Source of the DNA: Calocera cornea HHB12733
Taxonomy: Eukaryota; Basidiomycota; Dacrymycetes; Dacrymycetales; Dacrymycetaceae
DNA length: 48,820 nucleotides
Direction: 5' to 3'
NCBI GenBank assembly: GCA_001632435.1
Contig: KV423917.1
Location: 359,574-408,393 of the forward strand
Shown here: positions 1 to 48,820 of the stretch, in pieces
Position numbering within the stretch: the first letter of the stretch is position 1
Layout: each line of letters starts with the position of its first letter
The notes under the pieces: generated by a model
Database searches by the model: none
What the model saw: only the letters and a program-made list of their open reading frames with translations
What the model was told of the DNA's origin: nothing
Made by a program: the position numbers and the translations under genes

Positions 1-268
1 GTGGGAGGGGTGCGGGGGTGCGAGAGGGGGCGGTGAGCCGTCGAGTAGCCAGCAGCAGTAGTAGTAGTAGTGTAGTGTGTCGATGGGTGCCCGCGCTGTG
101 CAGGTTTCCGACCGGGACTGAGGGGAGAGGGTGCTGCTTACGTCATCCAGGGTCGTTGGGTGTGGTATGTGGCTGTGCTGGGGGTCGATGTAGTTTTTCC
201 TTTGCGGTGGTGAGTGGAGAGTGCACGCCTGCTCCCTCTGCGTCGGCGGGCCGCCGGTGTGCTCTGCC

Positions 269-2878
269 ATGTCCACTCTCGCCTTGCTATGCCCGACGCT
301 GCACCGGGGCAGAGCGCGCGCCCACGCCGCCCGGGCCCTCACCACCGCCGCCCCGCTGGCCCCCTCAGAGTCGTCCACCCAGGGCCGCGCCCGGGAGCGC
401 CGGCTGCTCACCGCCCTCCGCTCCTTCCGAAAGTCACACGCAAAGCTCATCCCCTCCGCCGGCCCACCCGCACCCCGACCGCACACACACACCGCACCCA
501 CCCTCCGCCCAGACTACTTCTCCCACCCCATCACCCGCTCAGACGCCTACACCCAGACATTCCTATACCGCCGCCTCGCAGCCGCACTCGACAGCCCCTA
601 CGCCGGAAACGACTGGGCACGCATGGCCGCACACCACGACATCCTCTGGGACAGCTACACCGCCCTCTGCCACGCCGTCTCAGCACGCGCACTCCCCCCG
701 CTCCTCCACCGCCGCGTCCTCCTCGCACTCATCCCCAACCAGGGGCCCTGGGGGGACAACCTCCTCCGCCTCGGCGCAGCCCCAGCCGGGCCCACCGCCG
801 CCGCCACCCGCATCCTCCACACCCTCGACCACCGCCTCCTCGCCCTCCTCGCACGCATGCGCGACGCCGCCACCCCGCAGACAGAGGACTACAACGCCGC
901 CCTCTGGGTCTGCCGCTTCACAGGCCGCTACCACACCGCCCTCGCCCTCCGCGACGCCATGCGCCGCGACGCCGTCCCCCCGGACGAGGCCACCTTCTCC
1001 CACCTCCTCGACGCCTTCTTCTCCCGCCACGCCGGCGCACCCCCCGTCCGCCCCGCCCACGAGTCACACCACATCGCCCCGCTCGTCCACACCATCCTCG
1101 CAGACATGTCCGCGCTCGGCCGCGCCCTCGCCCCGACCCTGCTGGACCGCATCGCCCGCCTCCTGCGCGAGCTCGACGCCCGCACAGAGCTCGACACCCT
1201 CTTCCGCGAGCACTACGGCTTCGACCTCCGCCACCCGGACCGCGTCGCCCACGAGTTCTGGAAGAACAAGCCCCCAGACGCACAGCTCCCCGGCGTCAGC
1301 AGCAACGCCCTCAACCAGCTCCTCTTCGCCTACTCCTGGAGGCGCGAGCCCTGGAACGCCCTCGTCGCCTTCGAGGTCCTCTCCGGGCCTCTCCCGCCCC
1401 GCCCCGCCCTCGCTCCCCGCAGCACGGGCGACCCCGGCACTGGCCCAGCCTACGAGGAGGACGACGAGGAGGACGAGGACGGGGACGAGCCCGCCGCGCG
1501 GGGCCCGGTGGTCACCGAGCACCCGCTCGTCAAGCGGCGTGCCTGGCCGACGGTCATCACCTACGACACGCTCCTCGCGAGCGCGACGTTTGCGCAGGAC
1601 GTCTTGCTCACCCTGCACTTCCTGTGCACGACCCTCTCGGACGAGCGGCGCGTGCACGCGCGCGCCCTCGCGCGCTTCCGCACCACCGGCCGGCTGACGA
1701 TCCCGCGCATGCGCCTGAGCACGTGGGGCGCCCGCAAGGCCGCCGAGCTCCTGGCGAACAAGCACCGCGCGGCGGACCTGCGCTGGCTGCAGGACGCGCT
1801 GGCCCAGCTCGTCCGCGACCGCTGGCGCCGCGCGAGGGAGTGGGCAGAGGCCGGCGTCGACCGCGGCGTCCTCGTCGGCGACGCCCGCCGCGCCGCCCTC
1901 AGCGCGGTCCGCGAGGCCGAGCGCACCGCCGCTGAGCAGGCAAGGCGCGAGGAGCGCCGGCACGCTGCTCAGCCCGACGACCTCGACGAGTTGCTCAGCG
2001 GACCCGGCACGCAGCACCTTCACTATGCCGACCCGGCCGACGCCGCCGCCTCCGGAGCCGAAGCAGACGCAGACGCAGACGCAGAGGCAGAGGCCGACCG
2101 GGCCCTCGCCCAGCAGCTCGAGTTCCAGCAGCACCTGCGCGACTCCGAGGCCGAGGCGATGCGCGCTGTGCAGGCTGGGGGCGCCGGGCGGGCGCAGGCG
2201 CTGTGGGCCGAGCAGGAGCAGGAGGAGGAGCCGCAGGCCTTCCGCCCCGCCGCCCCGCCGCCGCTGAGCGCCAGCGCGTGGGCGGCCGTGGTGCGCCCCG
2301 AGCCGCCGGGCATGCGGGGCGGGGAGGCGCAGGCGCCTGCGCACGCGACGGGCACGCCCCCGCTGGGCGGGGCGGGCGATGCCCCGCCCCTTGCCGGAGG
2401 TCGGGGGCACCCTGGTGAGGGGTTGGCCCAGCCCCCCGCGCTCGCCTCCTCACCCTCACCCTCACCCGATGGCGACATCGACATCGACCCGTTCCACGCG
2501 CCTCCCCACGCGCGGCAGTTCCGGCCCTCGCCCTACTTCCCGCGGACAGAGTCGGACATGGCCACGCAGCTGTACATGCACCTGCGGGTGATGCAGAAGC
2601 AGACGGGCGAGCTGCAGCAGTTCCTCGACTCGGCCCTCCCCCCGCTCATCAGCAACGAGACGCGCTGGGCGATCCGGCGCGACCAGCGGCACCGCGCGCG
2701 GCGCACCGCCCAGGGCTGGGAGGAGCTCATGCGCGCCGTCAGGGACAAGATGCCCGGCCATAAGGACGCCAACGACTTCCTCAACGCGCTCGGCGAAGTC
2801 GCCGGCGACCGCCCAGCCAAGACCGTCCCGGACACTGCCTTCAAGTTCCACAACCCGGCAAAGTCGGACGGGCGCTAG
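269..2878 (+). CDS. PPR-type mitochondrial protein (869 aa, single exon)
   Basis: Unspliced 869-codon frame. I start at the ATG at 269 rather than the in-frame ATG at 221, because 269 opens a basic Ala/Arg-rich stretch with few acidic residues that looks like a mitochondrial presequence. Residues about 205-250 (TEDYNAALWVCRFTGRY and the following segment ending in DEATFSHLL) read as one pentatricopeptide helix pair, and ITYDTLLASATF near residue 430 resembles another. Acidic low-complexity runs sit near 396-408 and 590-610, followed by a Pro/Ala-rich stretch and a conserved-looking charged C-terminus. PPR proteins bind organellar RNA; a role in mitochondrial RNA processing or translation is inferred. 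The gene is convergent with the methyltransferase gene 80 bp downstream. The exact orthologue is not recognised. Confidence 0.75.
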   Translation: MSTLALLCPTLHRGRARAHAARALTTAAPLAPSESSTQGRARERRLLTALRSFRKSHAKLIPSAGPPAPRPHTHTAPTLRPDYFSHPITRSDAYTQTFLYRRLAAALDSPYAGNDWARMAAHHDILWDSYTALCHAVSARALPPLLHRRVLLALIPNQGPWGDNLLRLGAAPAGPTAAATRILHTLDHRLLALLARMRDAATPQTEDYNAALWVCRFTGRYHTALALRDAMRRDAVPPDEATFSHLLDAFFSRHAGAPPVRPAHESHHIAPLVHTILADMSALGRALAPTLLDRIARLLRELDARTELDTLFREHYGFDLRHPDRVAHEFWKNKPPDAQLPGVSSNALNQLLFAYSWRREPWNALVAFEVLSGPLPPRPALAPRSTGDPGTGPAYEEDDEEDEDGDEPAARGPVVTEHPLVKRRAWPTVITYDTLLASATFAQDVLLTLHFLCTTLSDERRVHARALARFRTTGRLTIPRMRLSTWGARKAAELLANKHRAADLRWLQDALAQLVRDRWRRAREWAEAGVDRGVLVGDARRAALSAVREAERTAAEQARREERRHAAQPDDLDELLSGPGTQHLHYADPADAAASGAEADADADAEAEADRALAQQLEFQQHLRDSEAEAMRAVQAGGAGRAQALWAEQEQEEEPQAFRPAAPPPLSASAWAAVVRPEPPGMRGGEAQAPAHATGTPPLGGAGDAPPLAGGRGHPGEGLAQPPALASSPSPSPDGDIDIDPFHAPPHARQFRPSPYFPRTESDMATQLYMHLRVMQKQTGELQQFLDSALPPLISNETRWAIRRDQRHRARRTAQGWEELMRAVRDKMPGHKDANDFLNALGEVAGDRPAKTVPDTAFKFHNPAKSDGR

Positions 2879-3966: not shown

Positions 3967-4916
3967 TTCAGAGTAGTTCCTCACAGATGCGATCCTGGTG
4001 GGCAAGGCAGCAGCTCGGTATAAGGCTTTGTCGAGCACCGACAGTCGCACGGATGGCCCAGAGAGTGGCTTAGTAAGGCAACGGAGTGGTGGGCGCATCC
4101 AGTGAGGAGGGCCGGGGTTCCCCCGTTGCCCAAAGCCAGTCATGCAAGCACCGTAAGCCCAGCACCGCCACCCATTGTCGGACCGCACTAAGCAATGATG
4201 ATGCCCGGTGACCTAGCGCATTGTCGACGACAATCTTTCAGACGATGATGGTCGAAAGCCGTTCAGCAGGCGCTCATGTCCCCCGCAGCGCATGGAACGC
4301 GCGCATGCTGAACGGCGGTCGGCGCTGCGCCCGCCGTGTTGTACTCCGGGTGCGGAGGGCGATGATGCAATGTCGGGGCCATATCGCCGTGCGCATCTGT
4401 TGATGGGTGAACCGCGCCCTCTTCTCTTACCTGCCCTTCTCGGCCAATGCGCAGCGCTGCTTCGCTTCTCCCGTGCCGAGCGCCGGTTGGAAGCGGCCTT
4501 CTTTCCTCATGCTCTTTCGGGGCGACCTTCACACGTTCCCCGCTGGCACGCTTCGCTCATTACGCCATCGGGAAATCCATGACAGCCTGTTCTCATGCGT
4601 CGGCTCTGCTCACTCCTGTCTCCGAGGGATAAGGAAGAACTGCCCTCCCACCAGGTCTCTCGCTCGAAGTAACAGCGAAAAAAGAAACTATGATATTGGG
4701 ACACAAGATGGGTGCTGGGGGCTGTTGAAGCTGGGCTCCGGCAGCGCAGGCGGCATAGGGTACGAATACGGTACACAAACGAGACGCTACGGCGGGGTGG
4801 ACGGTGCGTGAGTGAGTGCGCGCACCCCGTCCGCCCGCAGCGGGGAGCGCGACTCCGAAATCGAACGTCCATGAGATGAGCTAGATCTGGTCGGCGCTCG
4901 ATCGCCGCGACGCCCT
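3967..4916. other. Intergenic, no gene seen
   Basis: Lies between the start of the methyltransferase gene and the 3' end of the repeat peptide gene. Open frames here are short, overlap on both strands and show no recognisable motif or consistent splicing. It should hold the methyltransferase promoter at its left and the peptide gene's 3' UTR at its right. Confidence 0.6.
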
Positions 4917-5641
4917 CTACTGCTCCTCGACAGACCGCCTGCCCTCGCCCTCCCATCTGCGAGGCTGATCAGCAAAGAGGACAGTACGCCGTGCGGACGA
5001 GGTGCTCACCGTGCGCCGTAGAAGCCGTCCGCGATCGGGGGTGCGCGCTCGGCGAGCTCAGCGTCGCGCTTGCCTTCACCCATCCAGCTACGCCTGTGGT
5101 CAGATGGGAAACAACGTCGCCGCTGGCGTGCTTACGGGTCGCCGAAGAAACCGTCAGAAGTCGGGGGTACGCGCTCGGCGAGCACGTCGCGCTTACCGCT
5201 GCCGAAGTTGCTGATGGGACGTCAGCGCAGGCCAGCATCAAGGAATGGATGTCACTCACGCCGGGCCAAAGAAACCGCCGTCAGCCTTCGGGGGAACACG
5301 CTCGGCAAGCTCGTCACGCCTGCCACTGCCGAAGTTGCTGTACGAGGTCAGCGAGTGCAACCCCAACGACATGGTCGTGCTCACTTGGGCCCGAAGAAAC
5401 CGCCATCAGCCTTGGGGGGAACGCGCTCGGCCAGCTCGTCGCGCTTGCCACTACCGTAGTTGCTGTACGGGGGTCAGCGAGGGCAACACCAACGGCACGG
5501 CCGTGCTCACTTGGGGCCGAAGAAACCGCCGTCAGCCTTGGGGGGAACGCGCTCAGCCAGCTCGGCGTCCCGTGGGACAGGTGCGGCCAGGGCGACGCCG
5601 AGGAGAGCAGAGCAGATAGCGAAAAGGGTGGTGAACTTCAT
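4917..5641 (-). CDS. Secreted Kex2-processed repeat peptide precursor
   Basis: Six exons: complement(join(4917..4956,5010..5087,5136..5210,5260..5337,5385..5462,5511..5641)), 159 aa. Residues 1-19 (MKFTTLFAICSALLGVALA) form a signal peptide. Five units follow, of the form D(E/AE)LAER-(V/A)-PP..DGGFFGP-N-(Y/F)-G-S-G, each closed by KR or RR, the dibasic site of the Golgi protease Kex2; the short tail is SVEEQ. Every intron is 47-53 nt, phase 2 and falls just after the aromatic-Gly core (FFGP or its variants), so exons 2-5 each encode one repeat and are multiples of three. Units 2 and 3 are nearly identical; 4 and 5 diverge (FFGDPWMGEG, FYGARWEGEG). The layout matches fungal Kex2-processed repeat proteins (pheromone-like, repellent-like or RiPP precursors). 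No modifying enzyme gene lies next to it. The activity is unknown. Confidence 0.88.
5010..5641 (-). repeat. Exon-coded tandem repeat array (5 units)
   Basis: Five copies of a roughly 125-bp unit made of a 75-78 nt coding repeat plus its 47-53 nt intron (the last intron ends just outside, at 4957). Introns 1 and 2 are themselves clearly alike (both begin GTGAGCACG, share GTTG, CTCGCTGACC and GTACAG), which points to duplication of whole exon-intron blocks rather than convergence of the peptide alone. Confidence 0.8.
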
Positions 5642-5835
5642 TTTTGGGTATGTTCCGGTGTTGAAGGAGTGTATGATGTTGACGTTTTTCAGACCAGGTA
5701 GGGGAGATACAATTCAAAGCGATCGGTTACGCTTGGGGAGTGGGTAGATGGAAAGGGAACAGAGGCAAGGTAAACCGGGGGGATGAAATCGCTCGAAGTT
5801 CTGACGGGCATTGGCTGCCGAGAGGAGCATGCGGC

Positions 5836-5843
5836 CTATATAG
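5836..5843 (-). promoter_or_regulatory. TATA box of the repeat peptide gene
   Basis: On the minus strand the sequence reads CTATATAGG about 195 nt upstream of the ATG at 5641. It is the only strong TATA element in this upstream region, and a TATA promoter fits a small secreted, regulated product. Confidence 0.5.
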
Positions 5844-5849
5844 ATTGCC

Positions 5850-7851
5850 GGGTGCGTCAGGGCGACGGTCGAAAACGAAGGATCGTTCGGATCGCACATG
5901 ACAATGCTTCTTCAGGGACGAGGTCATGCTAGGCACGGCACCCACCGCCCACTCCGCGCCTCATGTTCGCTTTGCCCGCCAGCCCGCTGGCTTCTTTTTC
6001 GGCGGAAACAGGACCGTCGATCAATTTGGGGCGCGTGCAGGGGGGCGGTGCCCGTGCCCATGGCGTATGGCGTGAGCATCCCTTCCCCACCGGAGCGAGT
6101 GAGTATAAAGCAAAGCAACACTCTGTAAGCGCTCCACGGCACCCCCGGCCAAGAGCGCGGGCAGCGCAACACCCCCGTCAGAGGCATTGACGACCAGTGC
6201 GGTCAATGGCAGCTCCCGTCCGCTACCAATAGAAATGCGTGACGCTGTTTGCATGCGGGCGCGTGCGCGCGACGACGGGTCGCCGGGGGAATTTCCATTC
6301 GGTTGTGTGTTGACCGCGCGACCAGATTAGCGTCGCAGCGCGCGGGGAGGGGGCTCCTGATGCTGTAGCGCAGCCCAACCGAATCCATTCATTATTGTGC
6401 GATTGCGCCCGCTTTCCTGCCTTTGGCCGGCCCTCGGCAGCTGCGCCCTCGGCATTCATTTTGAGGCCCTGATAATCACCTCCCTGAGCTTAGAGACACC
6501 ATCAAAATGTAATTATATAACCAATTACTGCGCTTGAAAGGCACCCTGTGCCGCCTTTTGACATCTGCATTCCTCGCGCGTGTTGCCTATCCGAGCCACA
6601 ATACCGGTCCAGTCCGCAATTTGTCCAGCGGGGCCTGGCCGCGCCGCGCACCCCGTCGCACGTTCCTCGTCCACAAGCCCGACCTCACTCGGCCGTGCCG
6701 TACTCCCCATCAGCAGAATGGCATCACTACGAAAACAGCGTGTGGCCAGATAAAGCCGACGGGACCCTGTCGCACTTGTGATAGAGCGTGCAGAACGTTC
6801 AGGAGCGTGCGGGATACTTCCCTCGGAGATTGCGGGCCCTCCTCCAGCGCTCTGTCGCCCTTTGCGCAGGGCGCCAGCGTGCACAATGGCCGGCCTCCCG
6901 GAACCTTCCAGGCCGTCCCTTTCCGCTTTCGAGGCCGAACGAACCGGCGCAGGTTGAGCCGCACGCACAGGCTGGAGATCATAGCCGGATGCGGTAAGCA
7001 CCACTAGCCGCCCGGCGCACACAGCACAACCCGGGGCGGCTCGATCATGACGTCAGCCGGGGCGCGGCGCATCATTGTATGCCCTGGCCGTTCCTGTACC
7101 TTTTCAGCCGATCACACTCGCACCCAGCGCGGGGATACGCAGAGGCGCGGAGGCCGATGTTTCGGCTCCCTTTGTGAGCACGGTCGATCGGCTCGGCGCT
7201 ACGCACGGCGAAAAGGCGCCTCCACCCCATTGTACGAGAATGGTACGAGAAGCCTCATTGTCCAATTCGCGCATCGTATGCAGTGTGCTCGCTGGGCGCG
7301 TGCAGCGCTGTTCCACGCCGGGCCCGGACCATCAGCTGACGGCATCCGCGTCGGTCGACATGCCCGCCGGAGCTCGGCCTGGGGCAGCTCGACAGCGAAG
7401 CAGGCAGAGAAGCACTCTTCAGGGTACACAGTTCTCTACATAGTCTATACGGGGTGCAGGGTCTGGCTCATAATGAAACCTTGATACCGCCGAAACGGGC
7501 TACCGATGACGCTGTCGCTTTGCCGCGTTCGGGGAGGAACGTGCAGCTGGCCGTGCCATTACGAAACTGTGGGAGTCAGGGAAGTGCCATGGTGGGAAAA
7601 GCAGGCGATAGACGCGGATAGTTGTTGTTGTTGATGGAGGAGGGAGGGTGCTGAGCGCGGGCCCGAGGAAAAGCGGCGCCACAACCCTGCCGCGCTGATG
7701 CTGACTGCTCCCGCAACGCCACTTTCCTGCACTTTCCGCACTTGCCAGGCCTGCTCTCCACTCTCCATCCTCCTGCGCGCCAACTCACAAGGTGTGCACC
7801 GGAAGTGTCGTCCGCACCCCCATTCACTCACCATCGATCGTGCTCCTGCAG
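5850..7851. other. Long intergenic region, no gene seen
   Basis: About 2 kb between the repeat peptide promoter and uS14m. Both strands carry open frames of 120-170 codons around 6525-7480, but these overlap one another in antisense, lack motifs and are expected by chance in GC-rich DNA. A GAGTATAAAG element occurs near 6100 with no gene to match it. Confidence 0.55.
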
Positions 7852-8216
7852 ATGCCAAACATCCGTATCCTACGAGACGTGGCCGTGCGCAAAGGCGTAA
7901 AGGCGCACGAAGTCGCCCGCCGCGCCTACCTCGCCTGCGCGCGCAACCAGGCGCTCGAGCCGGCCGTCCGGTATCAAGCCCAGCTGCAGCTGAACAACTT
8001 TGGCCGGTACACCCGGCCGACCGTCGTACGGAACCGGTGCACCGTCTCGGGCAAGGGGAGGGGTGTGATTGGCGAGTTTGGGCTGAGCAGGGTACATCCT
8101 ATCTTCCTCTTTCTTCAGGACAAGTACGGTGGGCTGATTTTATGGACGTGCAGTACCAGTTCAGGCTGGCTGCGCTCGCGGGCCAGCTGCCGGGCGTGCA
8201 GAAGGCCTCGTGGTAG
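7852..8216 (+). CDS. MRP2: Mitochondrial ribosomal protein uS14m
   Basis: Two exons, join(7852..8091,8154..8216), 100 aa. It starts PNIRILRDVAVRK, carries the family core NRCTVSGKGRGV near residue 62 and ends YQFRLAALAGQLPGVQKASW, the hallmark C-terminus of mitochondrial S14. The intron (GTACAT...TGCAG, with a CTGAT branch site) splits the GLSR|YQFR junction. The start at 7852 lies right after CTGCAG, so a 5' UTR intron or an upstream coding exon is possible; an upstream ATG at 7698 does not join in frame. The protein is part of the small mitoribosomal subunit head near the decoding region. It is convergent with the HAD phosphatase gene 104 bp downstream. Confidence 0.92.
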
Positions 8217-8320
8217 TGGACGACTGGAGAGGTCTAGACGATACATTGCATGCTTTACTGTAATGCTACACTGGATTCAGTGGCCAGGGCAGTCCCGGCC
8301 GCAATGATCTGATCACTCAA

Positions 8321-9412
8321 TCACCCCTCGAGCAGCAGCTCCACAAACTCTGCAAAGCTGTCCACCACCATGTCGGGTGGCTTGTCCCCTTTGTGCTCGT
8401 CCCCTTCCCTGTATTTGCCCGTCTTGACTGTTTCGCGCACGAACGGTAAGTGTATGCTCGTCCTCACTGGTGGGAAACGCACCCAGCACGCGTAAAAACC
8501 CGCACTCGACCGCCCCCTGCCCCAGGTCGCTCCTCACGTCATCCCCAACCATCGCGACCTCCTCATTCGCCCCCTCTCTCCCCAAGCCCTCCAAGGAGAG
8601 CTCATAAAACACCCGACTAGGCTTGCCCACAATCTCCGCCTTCACATCGGCTGCCTCTTCCAAGGCACTGATGAACGGCCCAGGCCCGAGAGAGAGCGCG
8701 CCGTCCGTGTCGGCAAAGTAGCGCGCGCGGTGGGTGGCGATCAGCGCGGGTTTCGGGAGGTCCTGAGCTTTGACATTGAGAGGCGCTGGGGTGGGAGAGG
8801 ACGGACGCTCGCGCGCGAGGATCCGGAAAGCTTCGTTCAGCCGCGGGTAGGAGAGCTCGGCGGGGGCGAGCCCGACGACGACACAGTCGTGCTCGCCCTC
8901 TCCCGGTGGGAACGTCGCCTTCGCACTCTCAGAGAGCAACAGCAGCGGGTTCCTATCCTCCATTATTCAGCACGCCGCGCTTCGAGCAGCTGGGCGGACG
9001 CACTTGTACCCGCGCTCCTGCACCAGCTGCCGCGCAGCCATCAGGCTCGTGAGCACCTCATGCCCCTCCACGCGAAAGCCGATCCTCTTCAGCCTCTCCA
9101 GCAAGTCCGTCTCCGACTCCTTAGTAGTGTTCGAGCTGCCCATATCAAATCAGCCCAACAACCCACCCTCGCACAGCCTGGCCCTGGAACATACATACCA
9201 TAGCCGGAAGGGCACCCCGGCTGTGCGGAGCCTGTCGAGCGCGTCCGCCGCGCGTGGGGTCGGCTCGTCGCCGACGTGCAGCGTGCCGGAGAGGTCTATG
9301 AGCAGCGCTTTGATATGCTTCAAGCTGCATGTAGCATGGCCCAGTCAGCCGACTCGCCACGCGCGCGGAAGGAGGAAGCTGGAGACCTTGGGCGAGGCAC
9401 GGAGGACGACAT
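8321..9412 (-). CDS. HDHD2-like HAD-superfamily phosphatase
   Basis: Five exons: complement(join(8321..8427,8483..8952,9004..9135,9199..9324,9387..9412)), 286 aa. Motif I is IDLSGTLHVGDEPTP at 18-32, with Ser in the +2 position as is typical of HDHD2 proteins. Motif II is in FRLCSNTTKES (about 48-58), the motif III lysine is in EIVGKPSRVFYEL, and motif IV is VGDDVRSDLG. It ends in the family's TGKYREGDE...PPDMVVDSFAEFVELL. Exon 1 is short and its GTCTCC donor is weak, so the first eight residues are the least certain part. HDHD2 relatives are Mg-dependent phosphohydrolases of unsettled substrate; a soluble cytosolic enzyme is inferred. Confidence 0.9.
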
Positions 9413-10747
9413 GGCGCGTCGGGCTTGCCGGAGAAGCATGTACAGTACTAGTACAGCCAACCAGCCGACGCGGACGGTTGGCCCAGGGTAACCGGCCGGC
9501 TCAGCCAGAAGCGGCGGCGGCTTCCTGGTACGACAACAGGCACAGAGAAGCAGCTCGGCAGCTCAGAGGCTCGCAGCGTCGCACAGCACAGGAAGCGGTG
9601 TGACTATGATAGCACGGGAGCCACCTAAGTTCAGGCACGACCAGGGGAGCGTGGACGACGCGCCTCGAGATGATGTGCCCCGGTGGCAGCCGGCGCGGAA
9701 GGGTTCCGTGGCTGCAACCGAACTTGCCAGTGCTGCGTAGGCAACAATCATGCAGTGAATCACGACATGGATCATGAATCATGAATCATGAATCATGAAT
9801 CATGGATGATATCAGCGGGTCGTTCTGACAATCATGATCACAATCGCGTCGCGTTGCGTTGTGCGGGATTACGGAACTGCCAGTAGGTGGAACTGCTGAA
9901 GCGTGTGGAACATTGTGCAATGTGCACTTAAGGGGCAATATCAATATCCAATGTGCGCTCCGGCTGCGGAGTTGAGTCAGGCGGCGGTGTCATGCGGACG
10001 GTTGGCCGGTGCATACTCGTGCCGCCACGGTGCCCATGAGATCGCAGTAGGCATTCCTCACATTCCTGCGCTGCGGGGGGGAAGGGCGCGGGCTGCGCAG
10101 CTTGGGCGGAGGTGGTTACCTCCCACTGGCAAGGCAACCGTCACTGGCGTCCGGTGCTCGTTCTCAACCGTGACTGCAGCCACGCGATAGCATAGCAGGG
10201 CGGGTAACCAACCCCAATGCATGTTCCCGCTGCTGCTTGCGCTGGCTAGCTGCTGTCAGACCGGTCCTGGCGCTGGCGCTCGGGTGCTTGTATTGCTACT
10301 AACAATAAAGCGTCTGGAATAGGTCGTCTATGGGCCACATACGGGAGACCTGAGGGGGGGAGGGGGGGGGGATAACGACTTCGAAATCTCGGGAATCTCG
10401 GGGACTTCGGCATGTCCAACAACTTGGATCAGAAGGAGGATGGGACTGCTAGGGAGTGAGGGGTAGCGGCCGGCGGGTGCCCAACAAGAAGAGAGGAGAG
10501 GAGAGGAGACGGCAGACTTTAGCCAAGAGACAAGAGGCGGTTGCTGGAGTGCAGAACAGAAAGCATGAGGTATGAGGAATACAGCGGGATATCACGGATT
10601 TGAGATTGGGAGATGACACGAGGGGAGAGAAAGACACGGAATAGGCTGAGCGACAGAGTGAGGAAGAAAACGAGAAACGACGAAGTCCCTGTGAGTGTAA
10701 GCATAGCAAACGCCAGACGCACGGATGCCCAGAGCGGGTCCCCGGGC
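9413..10747. other. Intergenic region with short repeats
   Basis: Holds the phosphatase promoter at its left and the 3' flank of the Ser/Pro-rich gene at its right. No convincing gene is present. It contains the 7-bp tandem repeat at 9771-9805, a G-run at 10354-10371 and a GAGGA-rich purine tract near 10490-10510. Confidence 0.55.
9771..9805. repeat. 7-bp tandem repeat, ATCATGA x5
   Basis: Four exact copies of ATCATGA followed by ATCATGG, with further partial ATCATG copies on either side. It is a simple minisatellite in non-coding DNA. Confidence 0.85.
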
Positions 10748-25094: not shown

Positions 25095-25713
25095 CAATAA
25101 GGACTCTCAGGGACACTGGTTGCGTCCGTTTCACCGAGGGCTGGACCCGCCTGTATATAGTCGTTTCGGCGTTTCACACACCGTGTTGTCTTACATAGGT
25201 AGCTGTTGTACCTTTACGTAGTAGCTCACTCAATGCCATCCATCCAGTAGCATATTCGCACGCGCCGCGGGACGCGGAAACCGGTTTCGAGGGCGGAAAA
25301 GGAAATGCATAAACTTTTTTTCGCATCGAAGAGAATAGAGGTATGTGGCAATGCCTGCCCGGCGACTCGCGCGGGACAGTGATCTGTATTGTGTAGTCGT
25401 AAAGAAGGTAGAGAACAGGATGATGGACACGAGACCAGGGGGACGGACACGGTCCAGTCCTCACCCGCTGTGCCACGCATCCTCCAACCGCCTTCATGCA
25501 GGAATCTAGCCAGGGAAAGAGGAGCTATGATATTGGAGGCGGAGGGCGAAGGGATGGAGGAGGTGCAAAGCGAGATGTGAGAGCCGGCGCTGCCGGTACA
25601 TGCAAGAACTTGAAATTGCCATAGAGATAGGAGATCCGGGTGACAAAGGGAGAACGAAGCGGTCCGTTCGGGTATAGTGAGCGGATTGTGCGTGCTCGAC
25701 GCATGTGCCACGC
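25095..25713. other. Convergent 3' flanks, no gene seen
   Basis: 619 bp between the 3' ends of the modular protein gene (+) and the GH128 gene (-). No coding sequence is supported; it should contain both polyadenylation regions. Confidence 0.6.
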
Positions 25714-26760
25714 TCAGCTGGAGACGTATTGCCAGCCGAGCGAGGAGAGGGAGCCGTCCTGGTTCATCAGACCATCTGCGGGGTTGACACCCTCTGCACA
25801 GCATCATCAGCGACCCCGCCAACGCCCGACAAGGGAATAACTTACGCATGTCGCGCATCATGCCGAACCAGGCGTGGTGCTCAACGAAGTCCTGCGAGTC
25901 GAGCCATGCAACAGCACCGGCCATGAAGCCGGGAACGTCGTCGCACTGCTGGTCGAGGTTCACAAAGTTCTGGCAGGCGAACTCGGAGACCCAGATGTTG
26001 CGGTTGTAGGTCGTGTGCCAGAGGTTGACGTAGGTGGTGAAGTCATCGACGGTTGTACCGTACCAGTGAAGGCACATGAAGTCAATCTGTAGAGATAACG
26101 TGGGTGACTCGTCAGGCGAATCAAGCAACAACTTACGGTGCAGTCAGGGCAGGCCTGCATGAAGGTGTTTGTCCAGTCAATGCCGTTGGGGTTGGAAGAG
26201 GTAGCAGCAGAGCCGAGACGGAATCCGTGCTGGTCCTTCAGGTACTGCATGTGTGTCCTCCAGTAGGGAACCGCAGAGAGGGCGTCGATGTTCGACTGCT
26301 CAGGCTCCTGGGGCTCGTTGAAGAACATGGCGATGTTGGTGCCGGCGTTGAGGATGTTTGCGTCCCACTCATCGGCCTTGTCTGGGCCCCAGAAGACAGC
26401 AGCGAATTGAAGCGCGCTACCGACGTTGACGGGGAAGACAGACCAAGTGTGGTACCACGAGCACTGGCCGCTGCAGCTCAGAATCGTGCCATCGTCACCG
26501 TTGGGCCAGCCTAGACCGCACTTGTCCCCTCCACCTCCGGAGCTTCCCTGAGGAGTGGATACTGCCACAGCAGAGCTGGAGGTGCTGGTAGGCTGGCTGT
26601 CGTCGGTGCTGCTTGTCGTCGTGGTAGATGTAGACGTGGCGGATTTGGGCCTGCAGTTACCGCGCTTCTTGTGAGCTGCACGGTCCATCGCGCCATGGGC
26701 CTGGGCGGATGCCAGGAGGGCAAGAGAGAAGAGGGAGATGAGGAGAGAAAGGCGAGCCAT
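25714..26760 (-). CDS. Secreted GH128 glycoside hydrolase (beta-1,3-glucanase type)
   Basis: Three exons: complement(join(25714..25793,25846..26086,26137..26760)), 314 aa. Signal peptide at about 1-20 (MARLSLLISLFSLALLASAQ), a basic pro-segment with KKR, a Ser/Thr linker (about 41-75), then the Asl1/GH128 catalytic domain starting KCGLGWPNGDDG. The acid/base candidate is Glu149 in MFFNEPQEPEQSN and the nucleophile candidate is Glu243 in IWVSEFAC. LGSAATSSNPNGIDW and LHWYGTTVDDF are also family landmarks. GH128 enzymes cut beta-1,3-glucan of fungal walls, so a role in wall remodelling or self-lysis is likely. Introns are GT-AG. A TTTATAT element about 65 nt upstream of the ATG may act as a TATA box. 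Confidence 0.9.
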
Positions 26761-29498
26761 TGTTGGTGCTGGAGTTGGTTCGGTGTTGGGGCGGGATGCA
26801 AGGTTGCCAGAAATGACGGTGTCGATATAAACGAGTGGTGGGGGGTTAAAGAGAGTTAGTAACAGCTGTCCCGAAGCGGGCAGGCTACAGCGAGGATTGG
26901 GGGGAAGGGAGGGGGGCGAGGAGGAGGGGCAGTCACGGACGTCGAGGAGGAAGAGAGGGTGAGAAAGAGCAAAGGAAGGGTGAAAAGAGACGGGAGCGGG
27001 TGCTTGTGTGTGTGTGCCAAGCGGGTCTGGCGCGTTGCGAAGGTGTTCCAAACGAAGGAATTACTTCCGCGTCCATACTCGCGTGTCAACCGCTCCGGCG
27101 CGTGCTCTCGGCATTGCGCCCCTAGCCACCGCTCCCCGTGTCCCTATACTGCACATCCATTCGTCACAGACCGAGAGCGCACCACTCAAGCGCAATAATA
27201 ATAAGGACATGCCTCGTCCACGCCTATCGTCATGGCCCAGTCCCCTCCTCTATCATTTGTTTACTCCAAGACAGTCCCCCTGACGTAAGTTAATTGCCAC
27301 GCCCATCTTTCATTCATACCAACCCGCCCGGATCGCCGTACCTGAATCAATCAATGGACGACGGCTGAACCCCTTTTATCCTGTGGCTCTCGCACTCAAT
27401 GCACACTTACGTCCCCTTGCAACGTGTGCCCCGCCGCCCAGCACGGACGTAGCCCAGGAAACTGCCCGAGCGTTACCCTCGTGTTTCTCCCCCTTGCCTC
27501 ACGGACGGTGCCAGCACACGGGCCAGAACGCCCCCCTTCCGCGTCCAACGATCGGCTCCGCAGCACCCGTCGTCACGACCGATCAAACTTTACGGCGGGA
27601 CAGCTATTTGCGGCGGGGCTATTCTCGGCCTACTTCCTCGCTTTCCGCCATCGAAACGAACGCGCTAGACGCGTCGCGTCTCGTTTCTCCATTCTTCATT
27701 CTCTGTACGGCGTTCGTATGCTCAGGAAACGTTACACTTCCAAATAGTTCAATCGCTGTGAAACTCGTTGAAAAGCCGGAGCCGCGCGTTCACCACGCGT
27801 AAACAGCCCATTTCCAGCCTGTCTTTCTGGGGTGCCTTCTACAGCCTTCCGTTTCTCCTGCGGTATCGCCCATCTCCGACATCCAGGACACGGACAAACC
27901 CTGGATGAGATGACGGAGGTCTGTCCCTCCTTCCGGACAGGACAGTCCCATATTTCCAGTCTTCCGTCCCGGATTCCTTGAGGTCAGTATTACGTCCTCC
28001 CAACGAAACGGGCGTAAGCATCCAGCATCCACTTTACCATAAGCACCAGGCACCAGCATCCAGCATCCAAGTTCCCGCTCCCCCGTCCATCCCGTTCACG
28101 GGCGATAACGTGCGCCTAGTTCGGGTGGGGATTGACCACCCCGAAGGTTGGTGATGCGGAACGTGGCGATCGAGCACTGGGAGTGACGGGGGTTCGGGGC
28201 CTCGCCGGTTCGGTCCTTCGAAGGGGTTCCGATCGGCGCCTCTGGGGGGCGGGGGATCATTGTCGGCAGCCTCGGGGAGAGGATGATGATATGGAGAGCG
28301 GGGAATGCCGGGGGTGTTGCGGGTGAATGCGAGCTGCGGGAGGGGAGCGGGGAGGGGCGGGGTTACGTGCAAGTGAGCAATGACGGTTTAGTGTGCGCTG
28401 GGAGGTATCACAGCGTAATAACCGATTTCATGTGTGAAGGAGCCTGACGTCAACGGGACAAGAAAAGGCCGATTCAACGTGTTTTATCGAGGACAACCAA
28501 AACAATCGCTCTTTGAATTCGTGGTGTGTACAGTATCGGTCCGGACAACTGTTCGGTCATGCACTGATCGTTGTACTAATAAACGACCTTTGACTGTCCT
28601 CCTGACTGGCGAGTCTGTCATGGCACCGCCTTTCTGCATACTGTCAGCGCCACCGGCGAGGGCGGAAAGTGCAAACCCGGATAACTATAACAATTGAGCG
28701 TCGTTATAATGAAATAGCAGTTCAATCGTGCCCATGTGGGCCGGACTGTTCGAGCTTGTGATGCTCGTTGGACCGAACATGATTTGCTTTTACTTTTCGG
28801 TACCCGACTCCAGCTGCGGACGTCATTGTCACCGCCTTCCTGCACAATAGTTTCCACCCCACGGTGAGCGAACACTGATAATTGTATCTTTCTCTAGAAG
28901 TACCAGGACAGTGCAGTATGTCGACTGTCATCTCAGCTCTCTTTGTCGTTTACTACGGCAGTTGTTCGACTGAGCGGCGATACATCGCAAACCGAAGTCC
29001 GTCGTTTACGCCGCGCAGTCACCGATCGCGAAACTTCCATCGGCGGGGGGCCAATCACGCGGACCATTGTGCGAAACGCGAGCGGCGGCAAGGTCGCGTG
29101 CCTATGCGTCCTGACACAGAACGACTCTTCTCTTCCCTGTGCAGCGCATAGTCAGACATGTACCAAGCATCACCGACTCCGTGCGAAAAATAAATGCAGT
29201 CCATTGCCGTTGCCGAAGTGTGCGAGCGGGCGGGCAGACAAAGAGCAGCGGCGGCGGGGAGGAGCGGACTGGCCCAAAGTCGTGTGATTCGTACGCCATT
29301 CTGGCTCCGCGCGACTCCTTCCCCGTGCCTAAAAGTCGCAGGCCCTCTCATCGCCACCCTTCCTTTTCTCTCATCGTTCACCATCACCTGTCCTCAAGAG
29401 CGAACGAGCGCAAGCAACCAACGCGTCCTCGACGTACAAAATCCAACCACCCCACCCGGCCTCTCAACGCACCGTCCGCTTCCACCCAGTCCTGCACA
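26761..29498. other. Long intergenic region, no gene seen
   Basis: About 2.7 kb between the divergent GH128 and RRM genes. The GH128 promoter lies at the left edge, and a C/T-rich leader precedes the RRM gene ATG at the right. Short CATCCAGCATCCA-type direct repeats occur near 28018-28072. Open frames are short, two-stranded and motif-free. I searched by eye for tRNA B-box sequences and found none that fold. Confidence 0.55.
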
Positions 29499-48381: not shown

Positions 48382-48820
48382 GAGCCCTTCTTTACCTTCA
48401 ACACCTATTTGCTGTTATTTTTACCACCGATTAATAACACATACTGAAAATATATTGAACTGTGGTACATATGAGAAGACAAAAGACGGTCAAGAAGGTT
48501 TTCTTTCAGATTGATCACCAAGGGACATGTCCAGAATGATATGATCATCTTTGTGCACGGGCACATGGATCAATCAATTTTTAATCCCCGTCCATCCTGT
48601 GCCTTTGCCAGTCGGCCACCGTCCGTCGGCCTCGCCAAATCGTACATTATTCTTTACGCACAGTGGTCCTTGCTAACCGGCGGTTAACAGCCGTTAACAG
48701 CCGTTAATAAGGGGTCAACGGCGGGTAACGAAAGAAGATGTATGGTACAATCATGCATTGTTCCATATCGTACAGTGGTCCTTGCTAACCGGCGGTTAAC
48801 AGCCGTTAACAGCCGTTAAT
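48382..48820. other. Right-edge non-coding region
   Basis: 439 bp after the HECT-like stop codon, AT-richer than the rest, without coding signal. It contains the direct repeat at 48660-48820. Confidence 0.6.
48660..48820. repeat. 49-bp direct repeat, 112-bp period
   Basis: Identical 49-bp copies at 48660-48708 and 48772-48820, both beginning ACAGTGGTCC. Inside each copy AACCGGCGGTTAAC forms an imperfect inverted repeat and CAGCCGTTAA is iterated. The second copy runs into the window edge, so the array may continue. Confidence 0.85.

Follow-up and report, generated by a model that had tools for sequence, protein, structure and literature searches.

A minus-strand gene in a 48,820-nt stretch of the genome of Calocera cornea HHB12733, a jelly fungus that decays wood (the stretch is called the window), is best read, with a probability of roughly 0.78, as encoding a KEX2-processed repeat protein (KEP). 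Its precursor would yield five linear peptides of 17-19 residues that act outside the cell without modification, while the DxLAER between them would be discarded. The gene and two relatives in the same 32.1-Mb assembly (here named C4, C9 and C13 after their contigs) appear to form a new family of this described class in Dacrymycetes. Judged from the sequences, C4 is the longest of the three related genes and C13 the most weakly linked. An earlier interpretation of the DNA (the sequence-only reading) had looked to the Agaricomycetes, a placement that does not hold, as the host belongs to the class Dacrymycetes.

Read and spliced on the minus strand (Table 1), the C4 locus gives a precursor of 161 residues, instead of the 159 counted previously. 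All five introns are 42-53 nt long, have GT...AG borders and lie in phase 2, and each contains a single match to the branch site CTRAY with the branch A 6-12 nt ahead of the intron end. Without splicing, the frame runs into stops within the introns. These features fit the six exons and five introns that had been claimed, and all five introns are probably spliced in vivo. One repeat per exon, as had been proposed, is the right number but the wrong register: every intron interrupts a unit, following GFFGP or the corresponding residues, so that exons 2-5 each join the end of one peptide to the start of the next. Five units, each closed by a dibasic pair as had been described, are borne out in the spliced frame (KR, RR, KR, KR and RR for units 1-5). 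LAER occurs in 5/5 units, its codons vary at synonymous positions, and no C4 unit reaches PP without it. No XA/XP run follows KR or RR; DEL, DVL or DAEL is found instead. The protein ends in SVEEQ, and its sole cysteine (residue 10) lies within the signal-like stretch. By eye, the N-terminus does look like the signal peptide that had been claimed, and the precursor is presumably secreted. A TATA-type box also precedes the C9 gene (at -263), while no match to the pattern TATAWA was found within 400 nt upstream of the C13 ATG.

Table 1. Features of the C4 gene, its surroundings and related loci (window positions unless a contig is given)
Feature	Position	Strand	Description
Window	G000:C4:359574-408393		
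C4 gene locus	5641-4917	-	6 exons, 5 introns, 486 nt spliced
TATATA box	5837..5842	-	201 nt upstream of the C4 ATG
Signal-like peptide	5641-5585	-	MKFTTLFAICSALLGVALA, read by eye
Exon 1	5511..5641	-	ATG, signal-like MKFTTLFAICSALLGVALA, then the short pro-region APVPRDAELAER; opens unit 1
Intron 1	5463..5510	-	48 nt, GTGAGC...CTGAC...CAG, phase 2
Exon 2	5385..5462	-	Closes unit 1 (NYGSGKR) and opens unit 2
Intron 2	5338..5384	-	47 nt, phase 2, 85% identity to intron 1
Exon 3	5260..5337	-	Closes unit 2 (NFGSGRR) and opens unit 3
Intron 3	5211..5259	-	49 nt, phase 2
Exon 4	5136..5210	-	Closes unit 3 (NFGSGKR) and opens unit 4
Intron 4	5094..5135	-	42 nt, phase 2
Exon 5	5010..5093	-	Closes unit 4 (RSWMGEGKR) and opens unit 5
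Intron 5	4957..5009	-	53 nt, phase 2
Exon 6	4917..4956	-	Closes unit 5 (WEGEGRR); tail SVEEQ, stop
Unit 1 core	5441..5548	-	VPPKADGGFFGPNNYGSG-KR, spanning the V that follows LAER through KR, with intron 1; start at V predicted
Unit 2	5316..5440	-	DELAER / VPPKADGGFFGPNNFGSG-RR, intron 2 included
Unit 3	5189..5315	-	DELAER / VPPKADGGFFGPANFGSG-KR, intron 3 included
Unit 4	5066..5188	-	DVLAER / VPPTSDGFFGDPRSWMGEG-KR, intron 4 included
Unit 5	4935..5065	-	DAELAER / APPIADGFYGARWEGEG-RR, intron 5 included
PPR_2	194-2875	+	25 bits, below the cut-off of 30
Ribosomal S14	7635-8304	+	Pfam
HAD hydrolase	8316-8966	-	Pfam
CATGAAT array	9766-9804		5.6 copies
Glycosyl hydrolase catalytic core gene (PF11790)	25700-27060	-	E 3e-25 and 2.1e-22, two frames
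GTTAACAGCC array	48683-48707, 48795-48819		Short, two copies; the window end is the end of contig C4
C9 paralog (P0001, CALCODRAFT_366257)	G000:C9, L005 1501-1938	-	Calocera cornea HHB12733
C13 gene	C13, from 211521		Single exon, 96 residues, three IYGPSW units closed by KR
UstYa match	G000:C16:276888-277109		L015, L031; only UstYa match in the genome

The locus is very probably a gene, and a chance repeat was set aside. Tandem Repeats Finder reports an array at 5163-5564 (period 126 nt, 3.2 copies, score 518). Within a 51-nt stretch of units 1-3, ELAERVPPKADGGFFGP, the pairwise differences are synonymous in the called frame in 3/3, 6/6 and 7/7 cases; these 16 differences come from three units, and the counts are thus not independent. 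Across the 75-nt units, 5/7, 9/12 and 10/13 differences are synonymous, compared with 1.4, 2.1 and 2.3 expected if they were placed at random (P 0.0036, then 0/5000 twice). One antisense frame comes close in the 51-nt stretch, with 12 of 14 changed codons synonymous, and an antisense frame at 4880-5701 (plus strand, 273 aa from stop to stop) is also open, as might be seen in a GC-rich tandem repeat with fortuitous frames and no gene. We consider such a repeat highly improbable, since the called frame alone has all 16 differences synonymous, five GT-AG introns with branch sites share a single phase behind a TATA box, and the C9 and C13 relatives have the same layout.

The introns also bear on how the repeat arose. 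Introns 1 and 2 share 85% identity (z 12.3, 100 shuffles), which suggests that exon and intron were duplicated together. Seven of the ten intron pairs lie above their shuffles by at least 3.9 sd and the pair 4-5 by 3.8 sd; the pairs 3-5 (2.4 sd) and 3-4 (1.1 sd) do not stand out.

The closest relative, the C9 paralog, was recovered both in the genome search (E 2e-10) and in the protein search (E 3e-11, with 48% identity across 80% of the query). The encoded protein has 127 residues; of its four cores, one is APPSSDGFFGPSWGGGG, one GPPTSDGFFGSSWGGSG and two are APPKPDCGFFGPCWYGGG. With C4 the paralog shares the core APPKPDCGFFGPCWYGGG-KR, a DLAER spacer and the genome; unlike C4 it has four units, two of them with two cysteines, and one phase-0 intron located elsewhere (PDC/GFFG). 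What precedes the C9 cores differs from unit to unit: (i) AP-IA after the signal part; (ii) KR, followed directly by GPP; (iii) LAER; and (iv) a Ste13-type run, EA-AP-EP-VA-AP-EP-VP-VA-EP-EA. In the database entry P0001, some 160 additional residues stand ahead of the signal-like start, and the dipeptide ladder encoded in the genome is missing. As deposited, the protein could be missed by a survey requiring an N-terminal signal.

Smith-Waterman scores calculated without the signal parts were 206 for C4-C9 against a shuffle maximum of 82, 99 against 60 for C9-C13, and 69 against 51 for C4-C13 (0/2000 shuffles in each case). At the level of single units, both C9 units tested against one C13 unit beat 20000/20000 shuffles, and C4 against C13 was weak, 588/20000 shuffles reaching the score; the units were picked after the searches, and all these figures therefore overstate certainty. 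C13 is accordingly linked to the family through C9. An alignment of the 12 units of the three genes leaves one P and one G invariant. X-P-P opens the nine cores of C4 and C9, and in the three units of C13 one Pro stands at this place. Pfam gave nothing above its cut-off for the C4, C9 or C13 proteins; the best hit for the C4 precursor was a sub-threshold match to MF_alpha_N (E 0.088, residues 1-40).

Conservation in relatives, a test set beforehand, was found within the genome (C9 and C13), and no other species came up. With the full precursor as query, P0001 was the only match at E <=1 among the best 7998 candidates by shared words (about 88-282 aa). Signal-trimmed sequences gave no match among the best 7993 candidates, whose length limits left out even P0001, and a narrower search of 13 candidates gave no relative from another species. 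The entry of the C4 gene itself was absent among the proteins of about 88-282 aa that were scored; the gene seems to be unannotated, or annotated at another length. At the DNA level, the genome search returned the window's own copy only. Three weak genome matches (L020-L022) were dropped, as their three-frame reading shows no signal-plus-repeat layout. When segments preceding KR/RR were scanned for similarity, C9 and C13 were recovered and the C4 gene was missed, because introns split its units; the four rows obtained within the window are chance antisense or unrelated segments.

According to the proposed scheme, the precursor would enter the secretory pathway, where Kex2 would cut after the KR or RR closing each unit and, we infer, also at an LxxR-type site, the LAER that directly precedes every core. 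The terminal KR/RR would then be taken off by a Kex1-type carboxypeptidase. The five products would be similar in sequence, [V/A]PPxxD(G)GF(F/Y)G...G(S/E)G, with DxLAER thrown away as a spacer; for VPPKADGGFFGPNNYGSG the computed average mass is 1780.9. Starting with X-Pro-Pro, the peptides would be protected from further trimming by Ste13/DPPIV-type enzymes, and most likely they would act unmodified outside the cell, toward other organisms or the fungus's own hyphae. Each cleavage, the mature ends and the function are predictions from the sequence. The genome contains a kexin candidate, a P_proprotein (P-domain) match at G000:C88:9394-9702 (E 4.9e-21; frames read by eye). DPPIV_N matches, which are candidates for Ste13, are strong on C31 (E 3.9e-42) and weaker on C45 and C82.

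The sequence-only reading had the peptides begin at DELAER, with 23-25 residues. Such products, for example DELAERVPPKADGGFFGPNNFGSG, would arise if the precursor were cut at KR/RR alone. Dibasic pairs are the classical Kex2 sites, and LAER persists in 5/5 C4 units through synonymous changes in its codons, as part of a product could. Three of the four C9 units, however, reach PP without LAER, and one begins with GPP straight after KR, aligned to the residue following LAER. LAER also matches the expanded Kex2 motif LxxR, Glu being among the residues tolerated at P2 (PMC8528282). On these two grounds a start at [V/A]PP is likely and the longer peptides are unlikely, though they keep a real share of the probability. 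When Coprinopsis cinerea KEPs were made in Pichia, their products were apparently cut after a single Arg (PMC9769878).

Taking C4 and C9 together, three maturation routes may converge on a common N-terminus, [V/A/G]-P-P: an LxxR site (LAER), a plain KR, and a Ste13 ladder, with Pro-Pro as the stop for dipeptidyl aminopeptidase and the C4 units carried on duplicated phase-2 exon-intron modules. We advance this combined scheme tentatively, at somewhat less than even odds. With human DPP4, a Pro in the P1' position can cancel what Pro or Ala contributes at P1 (PMC11612144); if Ste13 acts like human DPP4, X-Pro-Pro would be a ladder stop.

A cyclic or modified RiPP of the ustiloxin/dikaritin kind, its aromatics cross-linked by UstYa-type enzymes, would suit the aromatic core of the units; ustiloxin-type dikaritins likewise come from a Kex2 repeat precursor with an aromatic core, and one UstYa match (PF11807, E 7.1e-12) is present in the genome. 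This sole match, however, lies on contig C16, with none on C4, C9 or C13, in agreement with the earlier remark that no UstY/DUF3328-type enzyme is adjacent, and C4 thus differs from the dikaritins in having no linked UstYa. The window has 81 open frames of at least 100 aa that start before 17 kb, and intron-broken frames may escape this list; in 20 of them Pfam matched only PPR_2, ribosomal S14 and a HAD hydrolase, and no tailoring enzyme. A crude scan, blind to intron-split units, found no intron-free repeat precursor in 9.5 kb around the C16 UstYa. Cross-linked products are therefore improbable, and unmodified linear peptides most likely.

A pheromone-like signal had also been considered, and as a mating pheromone it is not favoured: the C4 protein has no CaaX end, and STE3 lies on another contig. 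In basidiomycetes, a-type mating pheromones have a C-terminal CaaX prenylation motif, which the C4 protein with its end in SVEEQ lacks. An alpha-factor type would share the layout of C4, the Ste13-like ladder in unit 4 of the C9 paralog and the weak MF_alpha_N match, and alpha-type KEPs have been published in Basidiomycota (main text of PMC6339444). According to the same text, however, the sexual pheromones of basidiomycetes all belong to the a-type, STE3 is on C41 and unlinked to C4, and no XA/XP run follows KR/RR in C4; STE2 had no match in the genome, although control genomes were silent too. We give an alpha-type pheromone little chance. Similarly small is the chance of surface-active repellents like Ustilago Rep1, which forms fibrils on aerial hyphae. 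Their precursor layout is the same (PMC8528282, on Rep1), but the hydropathy of eight 17-19-residue peptides from C4 and C9 lies on the hydrophilic side (-0.68 to -0.13), so that the repellent role proposed before is not favoured either.

Further along the window, the PF11790 gene has a signal-like start followed by HGAMDRAAHKKR, a stretch that is possibly a pro-peptide released by Kex2. The arrangement recalls a C. cinerea GH128 protein with a Kex2-released peptide, as described in the main text of PMC9769878.

Compared with published KEPs (Le Marquer 2019, PMC6339444; Umemura 2020, PMC7329392; Vogt 2022, PMC9769878), as their main texts present them, linear 17-19-residue peptides from C4 would come from a precursor alike in its signal-like N-terminus and its repeats separated by KR/RR. 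Some published KEPs carry Ste13 dipeptides, as does the C9 paralog. C4 differs by the phase-2 intron that interrupts every unit and by the LxxR site that likely precedes the core. The words exon and intron are absent from the main texts of PMC6339444 and PMC7329392, and intron occurs once in that of PMC9769878, on cDNA cloning; Dacrymycetes are unmentioned in the main texts of PMC7329392 and PMC9769878. The C4 repeat was not found in the main texts of the KEP papers; the supplements of the KEP surveys may already list the C9 protein. Within the published literature searched, the claim that the peptide family was undescribed stands. Two Coprinopsis cinerea KEPs in the main text of PMC9769878, 490115 (which has a Ste13 motif) and 447393, give the peptides QYKAPSW and GPPAPSW, which share PSW with the GPSW of C9 and C13. 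Their Trp is C-terminal, unlike in C9 and C13, and the likeness is a lead at most.

According to PMC7329392, KEPs were detected in 1345 of 1461 fungal strains, and the KEP type G-1 spans 49 genera. The peptides themselves have seldom been observed, and little is known of what they do; in C. cinerea, six kep knockouts grew and fruited normally, and the synthetic KEP peptides tested had no antibacterial activity (main text of PMC9769878). The authors of that study suggest a role in the biotic environment, and such a role is our best guess for the C4 peptides as well.

If the combined scheme is true, the phase-2 modules would let units be gained, lost or skipped while the frame is kept. The findings also suggest that mature peptides can be wrongly predicted when surveys cut at KR/RR/KK alone, and that KEP genes rich in introns can go unnoticed where a survey relies on annotated proteins. 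With their differing spacers, the related genes of Calocera cornea offer a testable case for how the N-terminus of secreted fungal peptides is set.
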